A DNA stretch of 64,000 nucleotides from an uncultured Paracoccaceae bacterium (GTDB taxonomy: Bacteria > Pseudomonadota > Alphaproteobacteria > Rhodobacterales > Rhodobacteraceae): the NCBI GenBank assembly GCA_913061275.1, contig CAJXSR010000001.1:1-64000 (forward strand), given 5' to 3'. This document shows positions 15,788-43,403 of the stretch, piece after piece. Within the stretch, counting starts at the first letter, position 1, and each line of letters begins with the position of its first letter. The notes under the pieces are model-generated. The model did not search any database, was not told the origin of the DNA, and worked only from the letters and a program-made list of their open reading frames with translations. The position numbers and the translations under genes were made by a program.

Positions 15788-17050
15788 ATGGGTTTAGCAA
15801 AAATGACTGATTTTAAAGAAAATGTTGCCAACGCAACTCAAGCTATGCGCAAACTGTTTCCGCAAACACCTTTGCAACGTAATGAACATTTATCAAACCT
15901 TTACAATGCCGACATCTATTTAAAACGCGAAGATCTATCGCCAGTACGATCTTATAAAATACGTGGTGCATTTAATGCGATGCAAAAAACCTTAAAAAAA
16001 TCTGATTCCACAAATTTATTTGTCTGTGCATCTGCGGGTAATCATGCACAAGGCATGGCATTTGCTTGCCGCCATTTTGGTGTTAGGGGCGTTATTTTCA
16101 TGCCTGTTACAACGCCTGGGCAAAAAATCACCAAAACCGCCGCATTTGGCGGTAGGTTTATTGAGATCCGATTGGAAGGTGATTATTTTGACGAAACTCT
16201 CGTTGCAGCGCAATCTTATGCTGCACAAGAAGGGGCTGCATTTTTGCCCCCCTACGACTCTGTTGATGTCATTGAAGGCCAAGCCTCTATCGCGTTTGAA
16301 ATAAATCAACAAATGCCCAAACCCATTGATTATATGATCGTCCCTATTGGTGGTGGCGGCCTATCATCTGGTTTGATAAAATATTACAGCACTGAAAAGA
16401 ATACCCCCGAATTTCGCCTGATAGAGCCAAATGGCGCCCGTAGCCTTTATGCAGCACTTAAGGAAAAACGACTTATCTCTGTGCCTAACATCAACAATTT
16501 TGTAGACGGTGCAGCAGTAGCCCAAATTGGGCATAACAACTTTGAGATTTTAAAACATGTCCCTGTAAAGAACGTTCTTGGCATCAACGAAGACCGACTT
16601 TGCACCACAATGGTAGAATTATTGAATATCGAGGGCATCGTGTTGGAGCCCGCAGGCGCATTAACGATAGATGCATTAAAAGACTTAAAAGATGAAATTG
16701 CAGGAAAATCTGTTATCTGTATCACCTCTGGCGGTAATTTTGATTTTGAAAGATTACCCGATGTAAAAGAACGCGCGTTGCGATCCGAGGGATTGAAAAA
16801 ATATTTAATTCTAAACCTACCCCAACGCCCTGGTGCTTTGAAAGATTTTCTAAACCTATTAGGCCCAGAGGATGACATTGCACGGTTTGAGTACCTAAAA
16901 AAATCTGCCCGGAATTTTGGATCAGTTTTGATTGGGATCGAAACTAAGTCTAAAGGTAATTTTAAGCTTTTATTTGATCGTATGGACAAAGCTGGGTTTA
17001 AGTGTCGGGATATTACAGATGATGAAACTTTGGCGCAATTTTTGATATGA
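15788..17050 (+). CDS. ilvA: Threonine ammonia-lyase (biosynthetic)
   Basis: PLP-dependent conversion of threonine to 2-oxobutanoate, the first step towards isoleucine. A 420-residue short-form IlvA: PLP lysine in RSYKIRGA, phosphate-binding glycines GGGGLSSG, then one C-terminal regulatory ACT-like domain (about 330-420), rather than the two of E. coli IlvA. Start is either 15788 or the in-frame ATG at 15803; neither has a strong ribosome site. The stop overlaps the next gene's ATG (ATGA). Confidence 0.92.
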   Translation: MGLAKMTDFKENVANATQAMRKLFPQTPLQRNEHLSNLYNADIYLKREDLSPVRSYKIRGAFNAMQKTLKKSDSTNLFVCASAGNHAQGMAFACRHFGVRGVIFMPVTTPGQKITKTAAFGGRFIEIRLEGDYFDETLVAAQSYAAQEGAAFLPPYDSVDVIEGQASIAFEINQQMPKPIDYMIVPIGGGGLSSGLIKYYSTEKNTPEFRLIEPNGARSLYAALKEKRLISVPNINNFVDGAAVAQIGHNNFEILKHVPVKNVLGINEDRLCTTMVELLNIEGIVLEPAGALTIDALKDLKDEIAGKSVICITSGGNFDFERLPDVKERALRSEGLKKYLILNLPQRPGALKDFLNLLGPEDDIARFEYLKKSARNFGSVLIGIETKSKGNFKLLFDRMDKAGFKCRDITDDETLAQFLI

Positions 17051-17817
17051 CACAGCTACTAAACAAACAGATTTTTGGGGAACCTAGTAAACACGCTACA
17101 CTGCTAATTGCGCATGGCCTGTTTGGGTCGGGTCGTAATTGGCGCGCGATCGCCAATCAATTAAGCCGTGATCGACAGGTGATTACCGTTGATATGCGCA
17201 ATCACGGCGATAGTTTTTGGTCGGACAGTCACAGTTATGCAGATATGGCCAATGATTTAGCTAATATTATCAATCAAATTGACGGCCCTGTTGATGTTCT
17301 TGGGCACTCGATGGGTGGCAAAGCGGTAATGGTTTTGGCATTGCAGAACCTAACAAAAATGAACAGATTAATTGTCGCCGATATAGCGCCAGTTACTTAC
17401 ACCCACTCGCAAATGCCCAACATTAAAATTATGCAAAACCTTGAAATAGCACATTTTACCCGGCGCACTGAAATTGAAAGCGCGATTAATGAACATTTAA
17501 ATGACGCTGCAACCAGCGCATTTCTTGCACAAAACTTTATAATTTCTGAACAAGGGAACAGCTGGAAAATCAATCTAAATGCACTGGCGAGTAATATGGA
17601 TAAAATTATGGGTTTCCCAAAAGCTTCAGCTACATTTAATAACAATACAGTTTTCATAATTGCTGGAAAATCTGACTATGTTCAGGCCAAGCATTACGAT
17701 GGAATCAACCGTTTATTTCCCAATCATAAAATACACCCAATCAAAGGTGCTGGTCATTGGGTTCATGCCGAAGCACCCCGTGAATTCATTCAAACAGTAA
17801 TTGATTTTCTAAATTAA
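17047..17817 (+). CDS. Alpha/beta hydrolase, YbfF-like
   Basis: A 256-residue cytoplasmic esterase-type hydrolase. It has the oxyanion segment HGLFGSGRNWR near the N-terminus, the nucleophile elbow GHSMGGK (about 86-92), and the terminal histidine in GAGHWVHAEAP. This matches the YbfF-type esterase group. Translationally coupled to ilvA by a four-base overlap, which is notable because no link between the two functions is known. Confidence 0.85.
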   Translation: MTQLLNKQIFGEPSKHATLLIAHGLFGSGRNWRAIANQLSRDRQVITVDMRNHGDSFWSDSHSYADMANDLANIINQIDGPVDVLGHSMGGKAVMVLALQNLTKMNRLIVADIAPVTYTHSQMPNIKIMQNLEIAHFTRRTEIESAINEHLNDAATSAFLAQNFIISEQGNSWKINLNALASNMDKIMGFPKASATFNNNTVFIIAGKSDYVQAKHYDGINRLFPNHKIHPIKGAGHWVHAEAPREFIQTVIDFLN

Positions 17818-17829
17818 CCAACCACAGAT

Positions 17830-18166
17830 TTAGCATAGTTTTTGGTCATAGTTTTGCAAAAATTGTTTTTTTGACTCTTGATACATCAGCATAAGTTCTG
17901 AAATTTTAAAATTTGGAATATGTTCATTTTTAAAAGCCTGCTCTCCATCCGACACATATCCCCAAAGGCTTTAAAGCCTAAATTAGATGCGCAGCCTTTC
18001 AAAAAATGAAATGCCGCTTCACTTTCATCTATTGTAAGGCGGATTGGTTTTCGTCTAATTCAGTCATAGCTTCATCAACCTCACATAGAAACAATTCTAT
18101 AACTTCTGGCACTTCCTCTTTACCCACATCTTCTTGTAGTTGGCGTACTTGCTGCCAGCCTATCAT
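17830..18166 (-). pseudogene. HPt phosphotransfer protein, two frameshifts
   Basis: Reading the minus strand from ATG 18166 gives an acidic helical start MIGWQQVRQLQEDVGKEEV and stops at TAG 18029. A frame change near 18030-18050 restores the HPt core FHFLKGCASNLGF, with its phosphoacceptor His in HxLKG. A second change near 17945-17955 restores a C-terminus ending at TAA 17830. Each change equals one missing base; repaired, the protein would be about 112 residues. The ATG abuts the DUF3131 stop (TAAATG), so it was the last gene of that operon. HPt proteins relay phosphate to receivers, and a receiver-phosphatase gene lies 2.7 kb away. Confidence 0.8.
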
Positions 18167-19329
18167 TTATATCCCCTTTTTAAATCGCGCTGAAATCAAC
18201 GGGCCATTAACTTTATAATTCATAATTTCCAAAATAATTCCGTTGGTGTTTGCCGTTGCGACTGAATTCAAACGCCCATCTTTTTCATATATGCCAGAAA
18301 ACCACCCTCGGTCATTGGTTTGGGTTTTTTGCACAGCACGCATAAGACGCGTAGTATATTCCGTATTATATATAGCGTGCCAACCGAATGCGGCCTTAGT
18401 ACTTAACGTTTTCAGTTCTGGGTATTGCACGCCATCTTCAGCAACCGCATTCCATGGCACCCCATTTGCAAACACAGTGTTATATAAAAAATATGGGGAT
18501 TGATCGATGTTATCCTCACTTACGGCCGTCAAAATTCCAGATGATTTAAATTTGTTCTCTTGCGCTTTATAAATACGATGGGCTAGTTCTTTTGCCTCTC
18601 GATCCAATCCAAACTCAATCGCCATTAAAATGTAAGGCTCACTTACAACATAATTTGGAGCATCAAATAAACTAAAGCTTCTGCTATCCGCCGCAATTTG
18701 TTGCCCTTCAATCGTTTTGAATTTTATATAATCATCGTACTTAGCTGCCGTCATTGCATCCAGGCCCAATAAGGCAATCGCGCGCGCACCATATTCTTCA
18801 TATCCCAGCCTGCCTTCTTGAATTTTTTCAGGTAGCCCCGTTTCAGAATGCAACCTTGCGCCCATTAAAACACCTTTTTCCACCATAGACCCAAAATCCC
18901 AATTAGTAAGAACATTGCCGGCAGCCACAGCATGTTTGGGGAAATCATAAAGTAAAATATTTAATGGAACCGTCATTCTTGCAATATCCAATGCAGACCA
19001 CCCTATACCGGTTGCAGCCAGTTCATTTCCGTAAGTTGTCATTTTCAAACTGCGAGTATCGTATACTTTGTTAGGGAGTTTTTCAAAAAACAGTGGTAAT
19101 TTTGCTAAAGTTCTAAGCGCCGATGACATGCGTAGGTCAAACAATGGTTCGTCAATAATTCCAATTTTATAGGCCGAGATCATACCCAAAAGGTACGAAG
19201 ACTGATCCCACACTGTTGTTGACGGAAAACCATCAACCGAATTCACCAAACCTGTTTCAGGGTTATAATTTTTTTCAAAATATTTCCATGCCACACCTGC
19301 TTGCTGTAACTCGGCATCTTTCCTTGCCT
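18167..19329 (-). pseudogene. DUF3131 protein, N-terminus lost
   Basis: The open frame from about 19294 encodes a DUF3131-type domain (glucoamylase-like alpha/alpha fold): WKYFEKNYNPETGLVN, VDGFPSTTVWDQSSYLLG, then a long body ending at 18167. Sequence homologous to the usual approach to this domain (KDAELQQAGVA) extends upstream in the same frame, but then meets stop codons. No start codon, signal peptide or ribosome site remains. It runs directly into out-of-frame glycosyltransferase sequence, as if a deletion had removed the end of one gene and the beginning of the next. These proteins commonly pair with cellulose-synthase-like glycosyltransferases. Confidence 0.7.
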
Positions 19330-20764
19330 ATTATCAATGCCCCACGTCCCAAAAACCGCTGCCAGTTCATGCACGATTAAGAAAGGTAAAAGATGTGCAA
19401 AAAAAATCAATCGAATAAGCGTTGATCGGTGACAGGCCAAAAAATAATGCAAGTAGTGGGGCCATAAGAAACACAACATTCCAAAGTGGTGCTAAATATG
19501 ACCAAAAAGTTGCGGCATACATCATGCGCTGCCGTACACTCATCCCGCCGCCCAGTAAGGGGAAATCATTGAAAACTATATCCAGACTGCCACCTGCATA
19601 TTTAAATCACTGCATAACCCAGCTTTGAATATCTAAAGGTGATAACATTTTGCTTTCAACATGTGGGTGAAAGACAGATTTCCAATTTCGGTTCTTATCC
19701 TCATGCAATTTTATTGAGGTATATATATCTTCCGACACATGAAATTTATAAGGGGTTAGATCAGTTGAAACTGATAATTCACGCCGTAAGGCCGCTGTTA
19801 ACCCTACCTGTTCAACTTGGTCTTTTTCCAGCTTAGTAAATTCTAGCGTTTGATCTTCTACCGATGTTGCATAATTTTTCAAGGCCACTTCCATTACCGC
19901 TTCACGCCTGTGGATTGAACCTGCGCCACAGCAAAATGAAACGTTTAACCCATTTCGGCGACGTTGGATAACATCATAAAAAAGCTTTGCATCATTAACA
20001 AAAGGATCACGGCCAATAACAACTGGCCCAACCATCTTTTGGCAAGCATACGCTACAAGTTCGCCAATTCGCCCAAAGTTTTTAGACCATTCCACCTGTA
20101 ATGGTCGCCCTTTTGGTGTATCATAAAACCATTGTGGCGTTTGCACCCAAGCCACATCTGCATCTCTGAAGTAACCCAAGGTATGACTTAAAATCGTTGG
20201 GAATGTGCGGGTATCTGAATCTAAAATAACAATAAAATCACCATATGTTTTGGCCATACCATTGCGTAAATTTCCTGCTTTATACCCAATATTTGTTTCG
20301 CGTGTTATATAATTAACTTCTTCTTCTAACGCGACTTTTTTCATTTCTGCACGATTGCCATCATCCAAAACATGCACCTTTAAATCAATCAGGCATGGGT
20401 ATTTTACCTGCTTTGCGTCCCGTATAGAGTATCGTGTCAGCTCAGGGTCTTCATTATATGTGGGCAGAAAAATATCCACACTAATTGGCTGTGTGTCATC
20501 TGCCCCTTTTATTATCTCTGATCGTTTCAAAGGGGCCGCTGTTTGGGGTGTATCATCCACTGACCAAAGGTTGTGGACGTATAGAAAAACCCCAATAAAC
20601 GCGCATGTTTCAGCCAGTACAACCAAAAATGAAAACCACATCACATCGGTATTTAGTGAATGCATCCAGCGCCATGATAGGTACCAGCCACCTAGGCTTA
20701 GCGTGCAGATTGCAAGGCTTTGCCAAATGAATTCAATCATAAATGAATGCTTTAAAGGTGCCAT
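19330..20764 (-). pseudogene. Cellulose-synthase-like glycosyltransferase, interrupted
   Basis: Family-2 membrane glycosyltransferase resembling BcsA-type polysaccharide synthases. ATG 20764 (after GGGGATA) opens 385 codons: two N-terminal membrane segments, HVLDDGN, ILDSDTRT and the SEDIYTSIKLH region are present. An in-frame TGA (19609-19607) sits exactly where the QxxRW-like motif should continue, between WVMQ and FKYAGGSLDI; CGA for Arg is the likely ancestor. The same frame stays homologous (MYAATFWSYLAPLWNVVFL) to an A8/T8 tract at 19399-19406. Homology (HLLPFLIVHELAAVFGTWGIDN) then continues in another frame until about 19330. The remaining C-terminal part is missing. Confidence 0.75.
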
Positions 20765-20913
20765 CAATATCCCCGCCAATCTTTCGCTGGGCTATATTTG
20801 TCAAATCTTCCCTAATTAATGGTTACTAATTTCACATGAATTTAAATTTCAAAAATTCATAATTTTTTAAGCCTCATCATCAAGTATACCCAAAATAATG
20901 ATACGAGGTACAC

Positions 20914-22187
20914 TTGGGAACTTTAAACCTTGCGGAGCCCGCACAGTTGCTGAAAAATGCAAAAGATTTTCGTATACTTGTTGTAGACGATAGTAAGCTT
21001 CAGTTAAAAATTGTATCTACACATCTAAAAAATGGGGCCTAAGCCCTGTTTTATGCTTTAGCGCCAAAGATGCGCTAGAGCGGTGTAAAACCCAAGAGTT
21101 CGATATGGTCATAAGCGACTGGGTGATGCCCGAAATGAATGGTTTAGAGTTTTGTAAGTCTTTTAAGGCGTTAGATAAGGAAAATTTTGGGTATTTTATT
21201 TTGCTTACTTCGAAATCAGCAAAAGAGGAAATTGCCCAAGGTCTTGCCCATGGTGCAGATGATTTTTTATCCAAACCTGTTAATGCCGAAGAATTATTTG
21301 CCAGAATTCAAGCTGGGCAGCGAGTTTTGGAAATGGAACAAGCATTACACGATAAAAATAAACGCATTTCTGAAACTCTTTCCAAGTTGCAGGCATTGCA
21401 CGAAGAAATTCAAAAAGACTTGGTAGAAGCAGAACGTTTACAGCTGTCTCTTATTCCCGAAAGCCATAAAAAACTAGAACAGGGTGATATATCAATTCTG
21501 TTTAAATCATGTGGTCATGTTGGTGGTGATTTGGTCGGTTTTTTCAAGTTTTCCCGTGACCGTTTGGGTATGTATTCCATAGATGTTTCAGGCCACGGAA
21601 TATCCTCTGCCTTGGTTACAGCCCGACTAGCAGGATATTTGAGCCGTAATAATAAAGCTCAAAATATTGCTTTTGAACGCGGGGAAAGTGGTGAGTTTAT
21701 TCATCGTAAACCCGCACAAATTGCAGAGGCGTTAAACAATCAATTACTGGCCGATATGGAAACTGAACACTACTTTACCTTGGCATTCGCAGATATAGAT
21801 TTGAAAACAGGGTATACTCAATTCGTGCAAGCAGGCCATCCATATCCGGTTATAATACGCAAAGATGGCACTACTGAACTTGTGGGCACAGGTGGGCCAC
21901 CAATCAGTTTAGTGCCAGATGTACAATACCAAACAGAAACCTTCGATTTAAAACATGGTGACAGGTTAATGTTGTATTCTGACGGAATTACAGAATGCCA
22001 AAACGTACATGACATCTTATATGACGATGATAGAATGCGTGCCGCTTTGTCAAAAAATACTGGGACAAAAGGCCTGGAATATTTAAATGGCCTGTTGTGG
22101 GATGTAAGCCAGTTTGCTGATGGCACACCATTTTATGATGATTTATCAGCAATTTTATTTGAATTCTCTGCAGATGGTGAAAAGTAA
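20914..22187 (+). pseudogene. Receiver-SpoIIE phosphatase response regulator, frameshifted
   Basis: A TTG start at 20914 with GAGG upstream opens FRILVVDDSKLQLK, a receiver N-terminus, but stops at TAA 21040-21042. One extra base in the A6 tract at 21027-21032 would join it to the rest: phosphoacceptor Asp in VISDWVMPEMNG, the receiver lysine in SKPVN, a coiled linker (about residues 140-170), then a PP2C/SpoIIE Ser/Thr phosphatase domain (GGDLVGFFKF, IDVSGHG, YSDGITE, DDLSAI). Repaired length is about 424 residues. Such proteins control anti-sigma/anti-anti-sigma switches. The remaining 360-codon frame from 21105 keeps the phosphatase but lacks the acidic pocket of the receiver. Programmed -1 frameshifting is an alternative to decay. 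Confidence 0.75.
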
Positions 22188-22254
22188 TTTCAGTATTATT
22201 TACTAAGTTTAAATTCAAACCAATTAATTTCGTGTAAAAGTAATAGGTTACACA

Positions 22255-23799
22255 TTGAACAATTTAATCACAACAACACCCTATCGGCTCTTGTTTGTTT
22301 TATTGTGCCTGTTGGGTCTTGCATCTTGCGCTACGCTAAGCACGCCATTGGTTAAAAACATATCTCAACCTAACCACAGGCCAATAAGGAACTTCACTTC
22401 TTTTAGCACATCCCTTCGGTGTATGGATACGTTACTTGCATCCACTGGTCGTCAGCGCATTCTAATCTCATCAACCGGGATCAAAGATCTATCCAAAAAA
22501 ATATCTGTTGGCGCAGATGAAATGTTACTGAATGCAATCAATAAAACCAACATCAAAAGTGGTGCTTACATATTTCTTGACCAATCTTTTGAAAAAGAAG
22601 TTTGGCAGCTAGAGCTGCTTTCTCCGACAAAGACGCGCAAGATGCCACGATTATATTTTCGCGGGGCGATAACACAAGTCGATGCAAATACCGTAAACGA
22701 TAAATTAAATTTAAGCCTTGATTTAACCAATGCACCACATGCGCCAACCATTCATGGTGGCGCGTTGAAAACCACAAACCCCAGTATCAGTCGTGGCGTT
22801 TCCATCGTATCTATCGACATGCACCTAGTATCTTACCCAGACAAAGTTGTGTTAGCAGGCGGGTCTGTTGCTAATTCAATGGTTGTCACAAGCAAAACAT
22901 TTGGAACTGGCAGTTCGGGGCTGATAAAACTTACTGGATATAATATGGCGATTTCTTTCAACAGGGTAGAAAGCATCGGACAGGCAGTAAGAAACTTAAT
23001 CGAGTTGGGTGTTATTGAACTGATAGGGCGCCATGCGAAGGTTCCATATTGGCAATGCTTAAATATAGAACCCACAAACCAAAAACTGGAAAACTCAAAG
23101 CGACACGTTTTCACTGTAAACCCAAAGTCCATATCCATCTCCAAGGCGCAACATATTTTGAAGAATCTTGGATACCTTCAAACAAAACCTACAGGTATTA
23201 TGGATCGGCGCACACATGCGGCGCTGGCTAAGTTTCAGGCAGATAAAGGTTTGATCGCAACTGGTAACTTAGATTTTGATGCGTACACATATTTGCTTCA
23301 AACTACAAAAGGCTATCCTGTAAACGGGCGTATTTACCGGCAAAAACAAACACCCACCAAAGCCCCTCAAAAACCTGTTGGCAATCACTTAACCCTTACG
23401 GCTTTACGGCCAGATTATAGGTTAAACGACACATTGACCGTAAAGTTTACGTCAAAAACAGCTGGGTATGCCACCTGTTTTCATCAAACAGGTACAGGGG
23501 TTGTGACCCAAATTTTACCTACTGAACCCAACGTTCGCCTAAAAATACCCGCACATTTCAACACACTTCTTCCAAGAAATAAATCTAGCTTTAGTTTAAA
23601 ATTCAGTGCCGCAAACATACCTGAAAATATCTTGTGTACGCTTCAAAGTGTAAAGGGTGACATTACATCCCCATATGACAACAAGTTCAACACACTCAAC
23701 CCTTTGCCCGTCAAAAAACTTATGGATATTCCTACCGAATATACAAAAATCAACCCTTTAATAGACTGGGTTATGATTTCTAATACAGCGACACATTAA
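22255..23799 (+). CDS. CsgG-like lipoprotein with peptidoglycan-binding and DUF4384-like domains
   Basis: A 514-residue exported lipoprotein with a TTG start. The signal peptide ends in the lipobox LASC (Cys at about residue 24). A CsgG/curli-assembly-like domain follows (about 50-250, with ISVGADEMLLNAINKT and a conserved DMHLVSYPDKVV strand pair), then a peptidoglycan-binding domain (about 285-345, AQHILKNLGYLQ...AALAKFQADKGL) and a C-terminal DUF4384-like beta domain (about 370-490). Likely outer-membrane associated and wall-anchored. It lies 67 bases after the receiver-phosphatase gene but is itself intact. Confidence 0.65.
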   Translation: MNNLITTTPYRLLFVLLCLLGLASCATLSTPLVKNISQPNHRPIRNFTSFSTSLRCMDTLLASTGRQRILISSTGIKDLSKKISVGADEMLLNAINKTNIKSGAYIFLDQSFEKEVWQLELLSPTKTRKMPRLYFRGAITQVDANTVNDKLNLSLDLTNAPHAPTIHGGALKTTNPSISRGVSIVSIDMHLVSYPDKVVLAGGSVANSMVVTSKTFGTGSSGLIKLTGYNMAISFNRVESIGQAVRNLIELGVIELIGRHAKVPYWQCLNIEPTNQKLENSKRHVFTVNPKSISISKAQHILKNLGYLQTKPTGIMDRRTHAALAKFQADKGLIATGNLDFDAYTYLLQTTKGYPVNGRIYRQKQTPTKAPQKPVGNHLTLTALRPDYRLNDTLTVKFTSKTAGYATCFHQTGTGVVTQILPTEPNVRLKIPAHFNTLLPRNKSSFSLKFSAANIPENILCTLQSVKGDITSPYDNKFNTLNPLPVKKLMDIPTEYTKINPLIDWVMISNTATH

Positions 23800-23801
23800 A
23801 C

Positions 23802-24233
23802 TTATATAGCAGCCGCTAGAAAATCCCGATCACCCTCATTAGTCAACAATTCCACCCCATCATAAGCATCCTTCCAAACCACCGTATGAAAAGGCTCTAA
23901 GGGTTCATGAAGTTTTAATACGGGCCTGCATAAATATATATGGCAAATTTTTTGTGCCCAAAACCCATATTCAGGCATATGGGTAAATCGTTGATATGCG
24001 CCCAGCCTGCGGGTAATTTGAACTTTCCAGCCCGTTTCCTCTAAACACTCACGGTAAAGTGCCTGAACTGCTGTCTCACCCGCATCAATACCGCCGCCCG
24101 GTAGTTGAATTTCTGTTTCATTTAATTCTTCACGGGTCAACAAAACCTTACCGCGATGCAAAATCACGCCGTATGCTCCTGGTCGGGGGCGGTATTGCAC
24201 GTCAAGGTGCACAGATTCACCATATCGTCTCAT
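23802..24233 (-). CDS. NUDIX hydrolase
   Basis: A 143-residue pyrophosphohydrolase with the NUDIX box GGGIDAGETAVQALYRECLEETG in the first half. The substrate, a nucleoside diphosphate linked to another group, cannot be read. ATG 24233 (MRRYGESVHLD) is favoured over an upstream TTG. Its stop is two bases from the convergent lipoprotein stop, and it is divergent from hslO. Confidence 0.85.
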   Translation of the reverse strand: MRRYGESVHLDVQYRPRPGAYGVILHRGKVLLTREELNETEIQLPGGGIDAGETAVQALYRECLEETGWKVQITRRLGAYQRFTHMPEYGFWAQKICHIYLCRPVLKLHEPLEPFHTVVWKDAYDGVELLTNEGDRDFLAAAI

Positions 24234-24325
24234 ATGGAAACCATACTGCAACCAATTTCAAATAACAGCTTGGAATTGCCCTTTGCCACAAAAGGTTTTA
24301 TGGGAACAAAAAGCCTAGGTGCATC

Positions 24326-25315
24326 ATGTCAAATACTACAGCAAATATCGAATGGGATGATACCATCCTACCCTTCCAACTGGATAGAACTGACATTCGC
24401 GGTCGGGTTGCCAGACTGGATGGATTATTAAACACTATTATAGAACAACATAATTACCCGTTAGAGGTTTCCGCGATACTTGCCGAGGCTGTTATTCTAA
24501 CCGCATTGATCGGCGCCACAATCAAGTTACGCTGGAAATTATCACTGCAAATTCGTGGTGATGGCCCTATTCGAATTTTAGCAACAGATTATTATGGGCC
24601 GAAAAATGAGGGCGATCCAGCCCGCATTCGCGCTTATGCCAGCTTTGATGAAGATCGCTTAACAGCCGAAACTGGTACGCCATTTGAAAAAATTGGCAAA
24701 GGCATATTTGGCATTCTGATAGATCAAGGGGCCAATACCGAACCCTACCAAGGAATAACACCGCTTACAGGTGGGTCATTGGCATCATGCGCAAGTACAT
24801 ATTTTGCCCAATCTGAGCAATTACCTACAGAGTTTGCAATCTCAACGGGTCAATCTTCCACCAAAACAGAGCGTGATAATTGGCGCGCAGGCGGCGTGAT
24901 GGTACAACTTATGCCAAAAGCCTCACCCTTTACTGCCACTGGTTCAAGTGATGAAGCCCAAGATCTTTTGCAGGCTCAAGATCTAATTTCCGAAACCGAT
25001 GAAGACGGCTGGGCCCGCGCAACCATGCATATGCAAACGGTTGAAGAAACCGAACTTATTGGCCCACATGTATCACCGCAAATATTATTAACGCGGCTTT
25101 TCCACGAAGATCAACCACGGATATTTCCAATTCAGCCTATAGAATTTGGCTGTTCATGCAGTGCGGAAAAAGTACGGTCAACAATGTCGATGTATTCAGC
25201 AAAAGACATCAAAACAATGACAACAGATAATGGTATGGTCACTGCTGATTGCCAATTTTGCAGCAGCCATTACGAGTTAGACCCTAAAACCCTTGGGTTT
25301 GACGCAAAAAATTAA
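24326..25315 (+). CDS. hslO: Hsp33 redox-regulated chaperonin
   Basis: Cytoplasmic holdase activated by oxidation through a zinc-bound four-cysteine switch. The 329-residue protein has the N-terminal substrate domain (about 10-230) and the C-terminal redox switch: CSCS and CQFC are the two cysteine pairs (about residues 276-278 and 309-312). AGGTG precedes the ATG. The stop overlaps the NUDIX start by one base (TAATG), beginning a hslO-nudL-cca operon. Confidence 0.95.
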   Translation: MSNTTANIEWDDTILPFQLDRTDIRGRVARLDGLLNTIIEQHNYPLEVSAILAEAVILTALIGATIKLRWKLSLQIRGDGPIRILATDYYGPKNEGDPARIRAYASFDEDRLTAETGTPFEKIGKGIFGILIDQGANTEPYQGITPLTGGSLASCASTYFAQSEQLPTEFAISTGQSSTKTERDNWRAGGVMVQLMPKASPFTATGSSDEAQDLLQAQDLISETDEDGWARATMHMQTVEETELIGPHVSPQILLTRLFHEDQPRIFPIQPIEFGCSCSAEKVRSTMSMYSAKDIKTMTTDNGMVTADCQFCSSHYELDPKTLGFDAKN

Positions 25316-42462: not shown

Positions 42463-42948
42463 ATGACCGAAGAAGAAATTCTGGCCCTACCTTATCGGCC
42501 TTGCGTCGGCATGATGATTTGTAATCGTGATGGTGGCGTATTTGCAGGGCAAAGGCTTGATGGGTATGGTGATGCTTGGCAAATGCCCCAAGGTGGCGTG
42601 GAAAAAGGTGAAGAACCCCAAACCGCCGCTTTGCGCGAATTGGAAGAAGAAACAGGTATTCCTGCCGATGCGGTTACTGTTGCGGCAGAAACATCGGATT
42701 GGATACCTTATGACTTACCACATCATATCGTCCCGAAATTGTGGAAGGGTCGCTATCGAGGTCAAAAACAAAAATGGTTTTTGATGCGCTTTGACGGGGA
42801 TGATGCGTTGATTAACATCAACACCAAAGAACCCGAATTTGGCGCATGGGCATGGTTGCCACCTGAAAAACTATTGCAGCTAATTGTACCCTTCAAACGC
42901 GATACCTATGAACGCGTCATTCGGGAATTTCAGGCAAAACTATCGTGA
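42463..42948 (+). CDS. rppH: RNA pyrophosphohydrolase
   Basis: NUDIX enzyme of 161 residues that removes pyrophosphate from mRNA 5' ends to start decay. [12 protein letters not shown] and the NUDIX box [22 protein letters not shown], then the RppH-type [11 protein letters not shown], are present. AAAGGG lies before the ATG. Ten bases after ctpA; its stop overlaps the next gene's GTG (GTGA). Confidence 0.93.
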
Positions 42949-43403
42949 TACGACTGGGGGCAATGGGTGTTTTGTTCACTGCCCTCGCCACGCAAGCGGC
43001 GGCCCTTAGTTGTGCGCCACCAGACATTAAACGCACATTTAACTACCTGCACACATCCCCTAAAACTTACGTTATGGGATTTGGGAAAATTACTGCGCTG
43101 GAAACTATCCCTGAATATGTGCGCGGCGAAGAGCGCCACATTTCCGCAGAGTTTGAAGGTGTGTTTTTAGGGCCATCAGGCCAAACTAAACAACAATCCG
43201 CCCTACTTACAGTAGACACAACATGCGTATCTGTCTGGTGCGGAAATTTTCCAAAAACAGATAAACAAATGTTGGTGTTTCTACAAAAAACAGACGTTGG
43301 CTATCGGATGGAATCTGGCCCGTGCGGCGGGCATTTCAAAATATCACCAACATCTAAAGATATAAGAAACTTGAAACGCTGCCTGAAAAAAAATGGCTGT
43401 TAA
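42945..43403 (+). CDS. Secreted cysteine-containing protein of unknown function
   Basis: A 152-residue exported protein that I do not recognise. The GTG start overlaps the rppH stop by four bases. Residues 1-20 form a signal peptide ending in AALS, followed by a Cys-rich body: Cys residues occur near 23, 93, 98, 124, 146 and 152, enough for three disulfides in the periplasm. The central part ([33 protein letters not shown]) looks like a small beta barrel. Last gene of the gpmI-to-rppH run. Confidence 0.65.

Follow-up and report, generated by a model that had tools for sequence, protein, structure and literature searches.

Four consecutive genes in the genome of an uncultured marine Paracoccaceae bacterium are disrupted, which raises the question of whether one functional system has recently been lost there or whether the sequence is at fault. 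The genes lie in the window, the whole stretch of 64,000 nucleotides (nt) of DNA that was analysed, which stands at the start of a contig of 286 kb. The genome (G000; 3.39 Mb, 56 contigs, 99.99% complete) belongs to the genus Amylibacter, and named records among the closest matches of the glycosyltransferase (GT) in the window are of this genus. The disrupted region, hereafter locus A, was compared over 33 genomes of the genus searched in total. We conclude, with a probability of about 0.86, that locus A is a recently disrupted copy of a polysaccharide unit that is conserved and, in the genus, spread over three loci, and that a switch-controlled system was recently lost.

Seven lesions in four genes of locus A

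In intact relatives, locus A encodes a histidine-phosphotransfer (HPt) protein, a DUF3131 protein (DUF3131-A), a BcsA-like family 2 glycosyltransferase (GT2), a receiver-SpoIIE response regulator (RR) and a DUF4384 protein. Compared with the intact syntenic loci of G012, G001, G006, G032 and G017 (the contig of G012 stops before HPt is complete), the first four genes of the window copy carry seven lesions, namely four one-base indels, one TGA, a 51-nt in-frame deletion and a 546-nt deletion, and all seven are absent from the aligned intact orthologues. The features of the locus are as follows.

17836..18166, minus strand: HPt pseudogene with frameshifts near 18030 and 17947, read in three frames against the HPt of G032 and G006 (112 amino acids, aa)
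18167..19308, minus strand: DUF3131-A remnant, 375 aa open (18167-19294), about 65 N-terminal residues deleted
19308..19309, no strand: deletion junction from the GT C-terminal region to DUF3131, 546 nt lost
19309..20766, minus strand: BcsA-like GT2 pseudogene with a 51-nt deletion, a TGA and an extra base, C-terminus lost
20965..22187, plus strand: receiver-SpoIIE RR pseudogene that lacks one base next to the A6 run at 21027-21032
22255..23799, plus strand: PG_binding_1/DUF4384 gene, a member of locus A with a weak HfaB-like N-terminus and an intact open reading frame (ORF)

Both HPt frameshifts align as one missing base each, and the phospho-His region, HFLKGCASNLGF, is readable despite them; Pfam Hpt was matched in the intact orthologues of G032 and G006. 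The HPt gene of G001, an otherwise intact relative, is shortened to 85 aa by a TAA (L022 1815-2072). The DUF3131-A frame itself is open, and its deleted N-terminal part includes a predicted membrane helix, seen in the model of the orthologue from locus L041; intact orthologues have 445-448 aa. The junction deletion spans 546 nt when measured on G012, G001 and G006, and 537 nt with G032 and G017 as the reference; the GT has lost about 118 aa at its C-terminus through it, and DUF3131 about 65 aa at its N-terminus. In the GT gene, the TGA at 19609-19607 replaces the Arg of QRFKY in relatives, the extra base lies in the A8 run at 19399-19406, and the 51-nt in-frame deletion at 20759/20758 is right behind the start codon; a genome search found no second GT match in the window genome. 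An internal ATG at 21105 in the RR gene opens an ORF of 360 aa, which lacks the acidic pair at the N-terminus of the receiver. The DUF4384 gene accompanies GT in relatives, and a remnant of it in G009 carries stops; the HfaB match in an intact orthologue fell below the cut-off.

The comparison with intact orthologous loci called for by the original prediction thus found the relatives' frames intact and the lesions absent from the aligned relatives: 15 genus relatives have GT in an open frame free of stops, RR is matched without an internal stop in all 23 genus relatives having it, and five aligned RR genes show no frameshift. All six of the lesions that had been counted, as at least six in about 4.4 kb, are real, and a seventh, the 51-nt in-frame GT deletion, had been missed. 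What had been described as a gene-end/gene-start junction is indeed a lesion, of which the nature is the 546-nt deletion into both genes.

The locus lies between an alpha/beta hydrolase gene (17047-17817) and a gene presumably of the NUDIX type (23802-24251), an order repeated in relatives. The flanks are listed below with names that we take from the sequences themselves in the case of threonine dehydratase, NUDIX and Hsp33.

15788..17817, plus strand: intact left flank, presumably threonine dehydratase-like gene and alpha/beta hydrolase gene, synteny anchors
23802..25315: intact right flank, presumed NUDIX gene (minus strand) and Hsp33-like gene (plus strand)

The GC fraction at 16000-24000 of the window, intact genes included, is about 0.40-0.41 versus 0.43-0.49 around it; in relatives, the HPt-DUF3131-GT stretch has 0.41 to 0.50.

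Integrity of other genes on the contig

No broken gene had been noticed elsewhere in the window, which agrees with our count: of 60 orthologue-like genes mapped inside it, four are those of locus A, and 0 of the 56 others is broken inside its conserved part, in a screen that is not fully sensitive. For the contig, 333 ORFs of G032 were used as queries, and 182 have an orthologue-like place on it, 169 being clean by the script criteria and 13 flagged. HPt and GT account for two of the flagged genes; the remaining 11 reflect a stop before the true start, an end difference, an extension into an overlapping gene or a partial match, and two overlap cases that were rechecked, genes we take to be SfsA-like and FxsA-like, are complete. 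None of the 178 other contig genes was seen broken inside its conserved part in this G032-query screen. Since two of the four locus genes went unflagged, namely RR with its frameshift and DUF3131 with its truncation, each of these lying close to an end of the gene, this count is a lower bound on lesions elsewhere. No indel was seen in the 177,996 compared bases outside the locus, versus four one-base indels in about 3.3 kb at the locus, which have P ~4e-7 even if a background of 3 indels per 178 kb is allowed for. The 546-nt deletion lies outside this probability argument and needs none.

Two unlinked partner loci are also affected

Locus B is a second DUF3131 gene (DUF3131-B). Its copy in the window genome, on contig 13, has lost one base and is thereby frameshifted, the sequences flanking the lost base being 67% and 83% identical to G032. 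Locus C, as found in G032, encodes an OpgC-like acyltransferase, a STAS protein, a HATPase_c_2 kinase, DUF3131-C, a 476-aa protein, an ABC-type transporter and an HlyD-like protein. The STAS, kinase, 476-aa and HlyD-like proteins have 0 matches in G000, the acyltransferase and ABC genes not being included in this search. DUF3131-C was not found in the window genome either, where DUF3131 is matched only by the disrupted copies of loci A and B. G012 and G001 carry locus C immediately behind their orthologue of the NUDIX-like gene that occupies 42463-42948 of the window, and no locus C remnant was found beside that position in the window, where 42463-43403 holds a 152-aa ORF followed by a glycerol-kinase-like gene. 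A divergent one-contig version is present in G005 (L036, G005:C196), with a GT of 45% identity, two DUF3131 genes and DUF4384-like and 476-aa-like genes; G005 also keeps an HPt-RR pair at the usual site.

Co-occurrence was compiled over the 22 good genomes (≥90% complete, ≤5% contaminated), the other 11 being fragmented or contaminated assemblies. Nine of the 22 have an intact GT; DUF3131-C, the 476-aa protein and the HlyD-like protein are present in 9/9 of these and in 0/13 of the others, and DUF3131-B occurs in the same nine and in G027. Apart from the disrupted copies of the window, RR and HPt are found in 16 good genomes; STAS and kinase accompany them in 16/16 and are present in 0/6 of the others, so that the partner-switch set (receiver-SpoIIE, STAS, HATPase_c_2 kinase) occurs together in relatives and the window genome keeps only the broken RR. 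Fisher values range from 2e-6 to 2e-5 (0.046 for GT with STAS) and are inflated by relatedness.

Beyond the genus, 386 GT loci were confirmed, and the best 80 were analysed, 13 in the genus and 67 elsewhere. Within the fetched flanks of these 67, DUF3131 is found in 65, STAS in 50 and kinase in 52, all three together in 45, and neither STAS nor kinase in 12, some of which are on short contigs. In the genus, STAS or kinase stands beside GT at 0/13 loci. In Yersinia aldovae ATCC 35236 (L115), GT is split into ORFs of 522 and 154 aa and one DUF3131 gene into ORFs of 259 and 229 aa, reflecting either decay of the same GT/DUF3131 unit elsewhere or draft errors.

The original prediction, that a unit of exopolysaccharide synthesis and its phosphorelay was recently lost, is therefore supported with regard to the loss, as the lesions are confined to the locus on the contig, locus B is frameshifted and the four locus C proteins searched for lack a match; the unit itself is larger than had been thought.

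A graded series at one site

Fifteen genomes without an intact GT at the hydrolase-NUDIX site were examined, G010 and G011 falling outside these. In seven of them (G003, G004, G005, G015, G023, G027 and G031), HPt and RR are all that lies between hydrolase and NUDIX; G009 retains both of these genes intact, along with remnants of GT and DUF4384; and in seven (G002, G007, G008, G021, G024, G026 and G030) nothing was recognised at the site and the hydrolase adjoins the NUDIX gene, the site in the close species G024 being clean and empty. In a tree of three markers covering 31 of the 33 genomes (G008 and G010 were dropped for too little sequence), G024 groups with G006 with a support of 86, and G000 falls among intact species, its exact place being weakly supported (66). 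As G000 and G024 both fall among intact species in this tree, the losses in G000, in G024, in G009 and in the clade G002/G007/G021/G026/G030 appear to be independent events, provided that the full state is the ancestral one there. One site thus displays the intact, regulator-only, partly decayed, freshly broken and empty states. Since these states are found in one genus, they show directly in which sequence the parts of a dispersed pathway are lost.

Selection and age of the decay

A branch codon model written for this analysis was fitted with at most 7 of up to 11 taxa, after removal of columns where the window sequence shows a gap or X, or where <60% of taxa are filled. The ratio of nonsynonymous to synonymous rates (dN/dS, omega) on the window branch versus the background is 0.071 versus 0.071 for GT, 0.014 versus 0.055 for DUF3131-A, 0.033 versus 0.042 for RR and 0.150 versus 0.029 for HPt; HPt alone hints at relaxation (p 0.10). 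Seven control genes gave 0.013 to 0.217. For GT, DUF3131-A and RR jointly, the window branch has 0.043 versus 0.059, and a value of 0.08 is rejected, being 6.9 log units worse. The dN/dS check that had been proposed for each gene therefore reveals no sign of relaxation, which fits the word "recent" and does not itself prove decay. It follows that the lesions, not substitutions, carry the claim of decay, and, as no relaxation was seen on the window branch, that the lesions came late and the loss is recent. We infer that at most about 2% of the window branch passed without selection.

A cellulose-synthase-like glycosyltransferase with GH189-like partners

The intact GT orthologue of G032 matched Pfam Glycos_transf_2 and Cellulose_synt, a GT2 domain followed by a cellulose-synthase C-terminal region, and the orthologue in L041 matched the BcsA structure 7lby with E 2.6e-29. 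Judged by sequence, the GT is predicted to be a cellulose-synthase-like processive GT2. Assignment as a cellulose synthase BcsA/CelA equivalog was rejected, the G032 orthologue scoring 215.3 versus the 699.1-bit cut-off of TIGR03030 (NCBIfam).

DUF3131-A of Amylibacter sp. SFDW26 (L041) was modelled with a predicted local distance difference test score (pLDDT) of 92 and a long N-terminal helix. The top match of the model is the GH189 cyclisation domain, with Z 35.0 and 2.7 Å over 345 residues; a profile match to 8wy1 had E 1e-5 and covers positions 58-153 only. DUF3131-A is thus a single (alpha/alpha)6 barrel with best similarity to the GH189/GH144/GH162 superfamily. For the GH189 enzyme TiCGS, E1356 is given as a conserved acid and E1442 as the nucleophile (PMC10834661). 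The DUF3131 set A1 comprised 36 of the 73 eligible proteins together with that of the window. In Pfam, DUF3131 is a family of unknown function; a search of full-text literature found it named in few papers and in no title or abstract among these, and other forms of the name were not found. A literature search likewise found nothing joining OpgC, an anti-sigma factor antagonist and cellulose synthase.

A probable partner-switch-controlled system and its loss

Taken together, our data suggest that a partner-switch-controlled beta-glucan system is likely being lost. By analogy with known switches, a histidine phosphorelay through HPt would drive the receiver-SpoIIE phosphatase, which would dephosphorylate the STAS protein; what is known of SpoIIE/STAS/kinase switches (PMC6482189) is the basis for this expectation. 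That RR would act on the STAS protein of locus C is suggested by their joint presence and loss. The unphosphorylated STAS protein would then bind the kinase/anti-sigma factor, and the switch would turn on GT, which would polymerise and export a beta-glucan. The membrane-anchored DUF3131 proteins, to judge from the modelled GH189/GH144 fold, may cut or transglycosylate, and perhaps cyclise, the chain. Selection for the product would have ended recently in the window lineage, the genes then being damaged independently, and the expected fate of locus A would be a clean deletion as in G024.

Several observations weigh against this reading of locus A. The DUF4384/PG-binding gene of the window is intact and constrained although its neighbours are dead, the lesions are known from the assembled sequence alone, and omega is not raised on the window branch in GT, DUF3131-A and RR. 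Family-invariant residues, defined on sets of 80 GT, 75 DUF3131 and 46 RR sequences after length filters, are changed at 0/103 positions in GT, 0/37 in DUF3131 and 1/26 in RR. Phylogenetically independent GT differences number only 5, all in agreement with DUF3131-C, for which the sign test has a floor of 0.0625. In G027, DUF3131-B occurs although A and C are absent. Among the lower-quality genomes, no DUF3131-C was found in G028 and G029, which have GT; no B was found in G012 and G018; G010 has B and C without A; and no STAS was found in G005 and G028, which have RR. Seven good genomes (G003, G004, G009, G015, G023, G027 and G031) keep HPt-RR-STAS-kinase without an intact GT, and the switch therefore serves something else there. 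The sugar, the linkage and the enzyme activity are inferred from the modelled fold only. In G003, G027 and G015 (L223, L225 and L227), the kinase-STAS pair adjoins a gene of 1818-1836 aa, which is an alpha-2-macroglobulin in L223 and L227, the two tested.

It could be that only the polysaccharide genes are dead and that RR works in another pathway, from the ATG at 21105 or through slippage at the A6 run. The SpoIIE domain of the 360-aa ORF is complete, the SDW aspartate is present, constraint on RR is undiminished, and the seven genomes just named have kept the switch without an intact GT. The expected client STAS protein and partner kinase, however, have no match in the window genome, HPt is doubly frameshifted, all 16 other good genomes with RR have both STAS and kinase, and the RR frame is maintained in the relatives described above; we consider a working RR improbable. 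A local sequencing or assembly error, under which the indels would be artefacts and the genes intact, had been offered as the other explanation of the locus. It would agree with frames that are otherwise well conserved and with the position of two of the four one-base indels at homopolymers (the A6 and A8 runs), but the other compared genes on the contig, about 178 kb, show no indel, and homopolymer errors would explain neither the TGA nor the deletions of 546 and 51 nt. As none of the other contig genes compared was seen broken, and as an error that damaged locus A would not remove locus C, with locus B also damaged, an erroneous segment is very unlikely.

Independent neutral decay of unrelated neighbours in a pseudogene-rich genome, with no loss of a unit, would in principle suffice for adjacent genes, since general decay could strike any of them, and the screen covered only 8% of the genome. 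Against it, 178 other contig genes show no internal lesions in the screen, the flanking genes are intact, the unlinked DUF3131-B is broken and the matching locus C proteins were searched for without a match, all of which make such a coincidence highly implausible. We therefore favour the recent loss of the switch-controlled polysaccharide unit.

Gene decay is ordinary as such, and the value of the locus lies in the functional linkage of DUF3131, GT and partner switch, together with the graded series. The fold, the steady partnership with a BcsA-like synthase and the joint loss with a distant switch give DUF3131 a testable role, that is, trimming or cyclising a beta-glucan. More broadly, and tentatively, a GT2 with a stand-alone GH189-type DUF3131 under an HPt/SpoIIE/STAS/kinase switch may constitute a system for a beta-glucan, possibly cyclic beta-1,2-glucan, that is both widespread and uncharacterised. 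In Amylibacter, its parts would cooperate across three unlinked loci, and it would be repeatedly discarded whole, the switch alone being keepable for another client.

Comparison with known systems

Nearly the same parts are listed, with no function assigned, for accessory block 3b of Klebsiella pneumoniae (PMC12974863). Block 3b is described there as one block of accessory genes, whereas the Amylibacter parts stand at three loci and include HPt and RR-SpoIIE; the parts left in the window genome are pseudogenes. Like BcsA systems (7lby, 4hg6), the system has a membrane GT2 with cellulose-synthase similarity and a partner enzyme of the (alpha/alpha)6 fold, BcsZ being among the Foldseek matches of the DUF3131-A model. 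Different from BcsA systems, no PilZ is among the Pfam matches of the intact GT orthologue, control is by a partner switch, and the partner DUF3131 is nearer to GH189/GH144 than to BcsZ. DUF3131-A shares the fold of the GH189 cyclisation domain of cyclic beta-1,2-glucan synthesis, but it is a separate membrane-anchored protein with about 12% identity.

With regard to control, HptB is the HPt input of the HsbR-HsbA partner switch of Pseudomonas. HsbR-HsbA itself consists of a response regulator and a STAS-type anti-sigma factor antagonist (PMC6482189). Compared with that switch, the one in Amylibacter has a separate HATPase_c_2 kinase and unlinked parts, its output is probably a glucan synthase, and it is dead in the window genome. 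In its mode of loss, locus A resembles a unitary pseudogene cluster, its genes being disrupted where relatives have intact syntenic orthologues, with no other copy. Unlike in a typical cluster of this kind, the decay is coordinated over three unlinked loci and has set in before substitutions show it.

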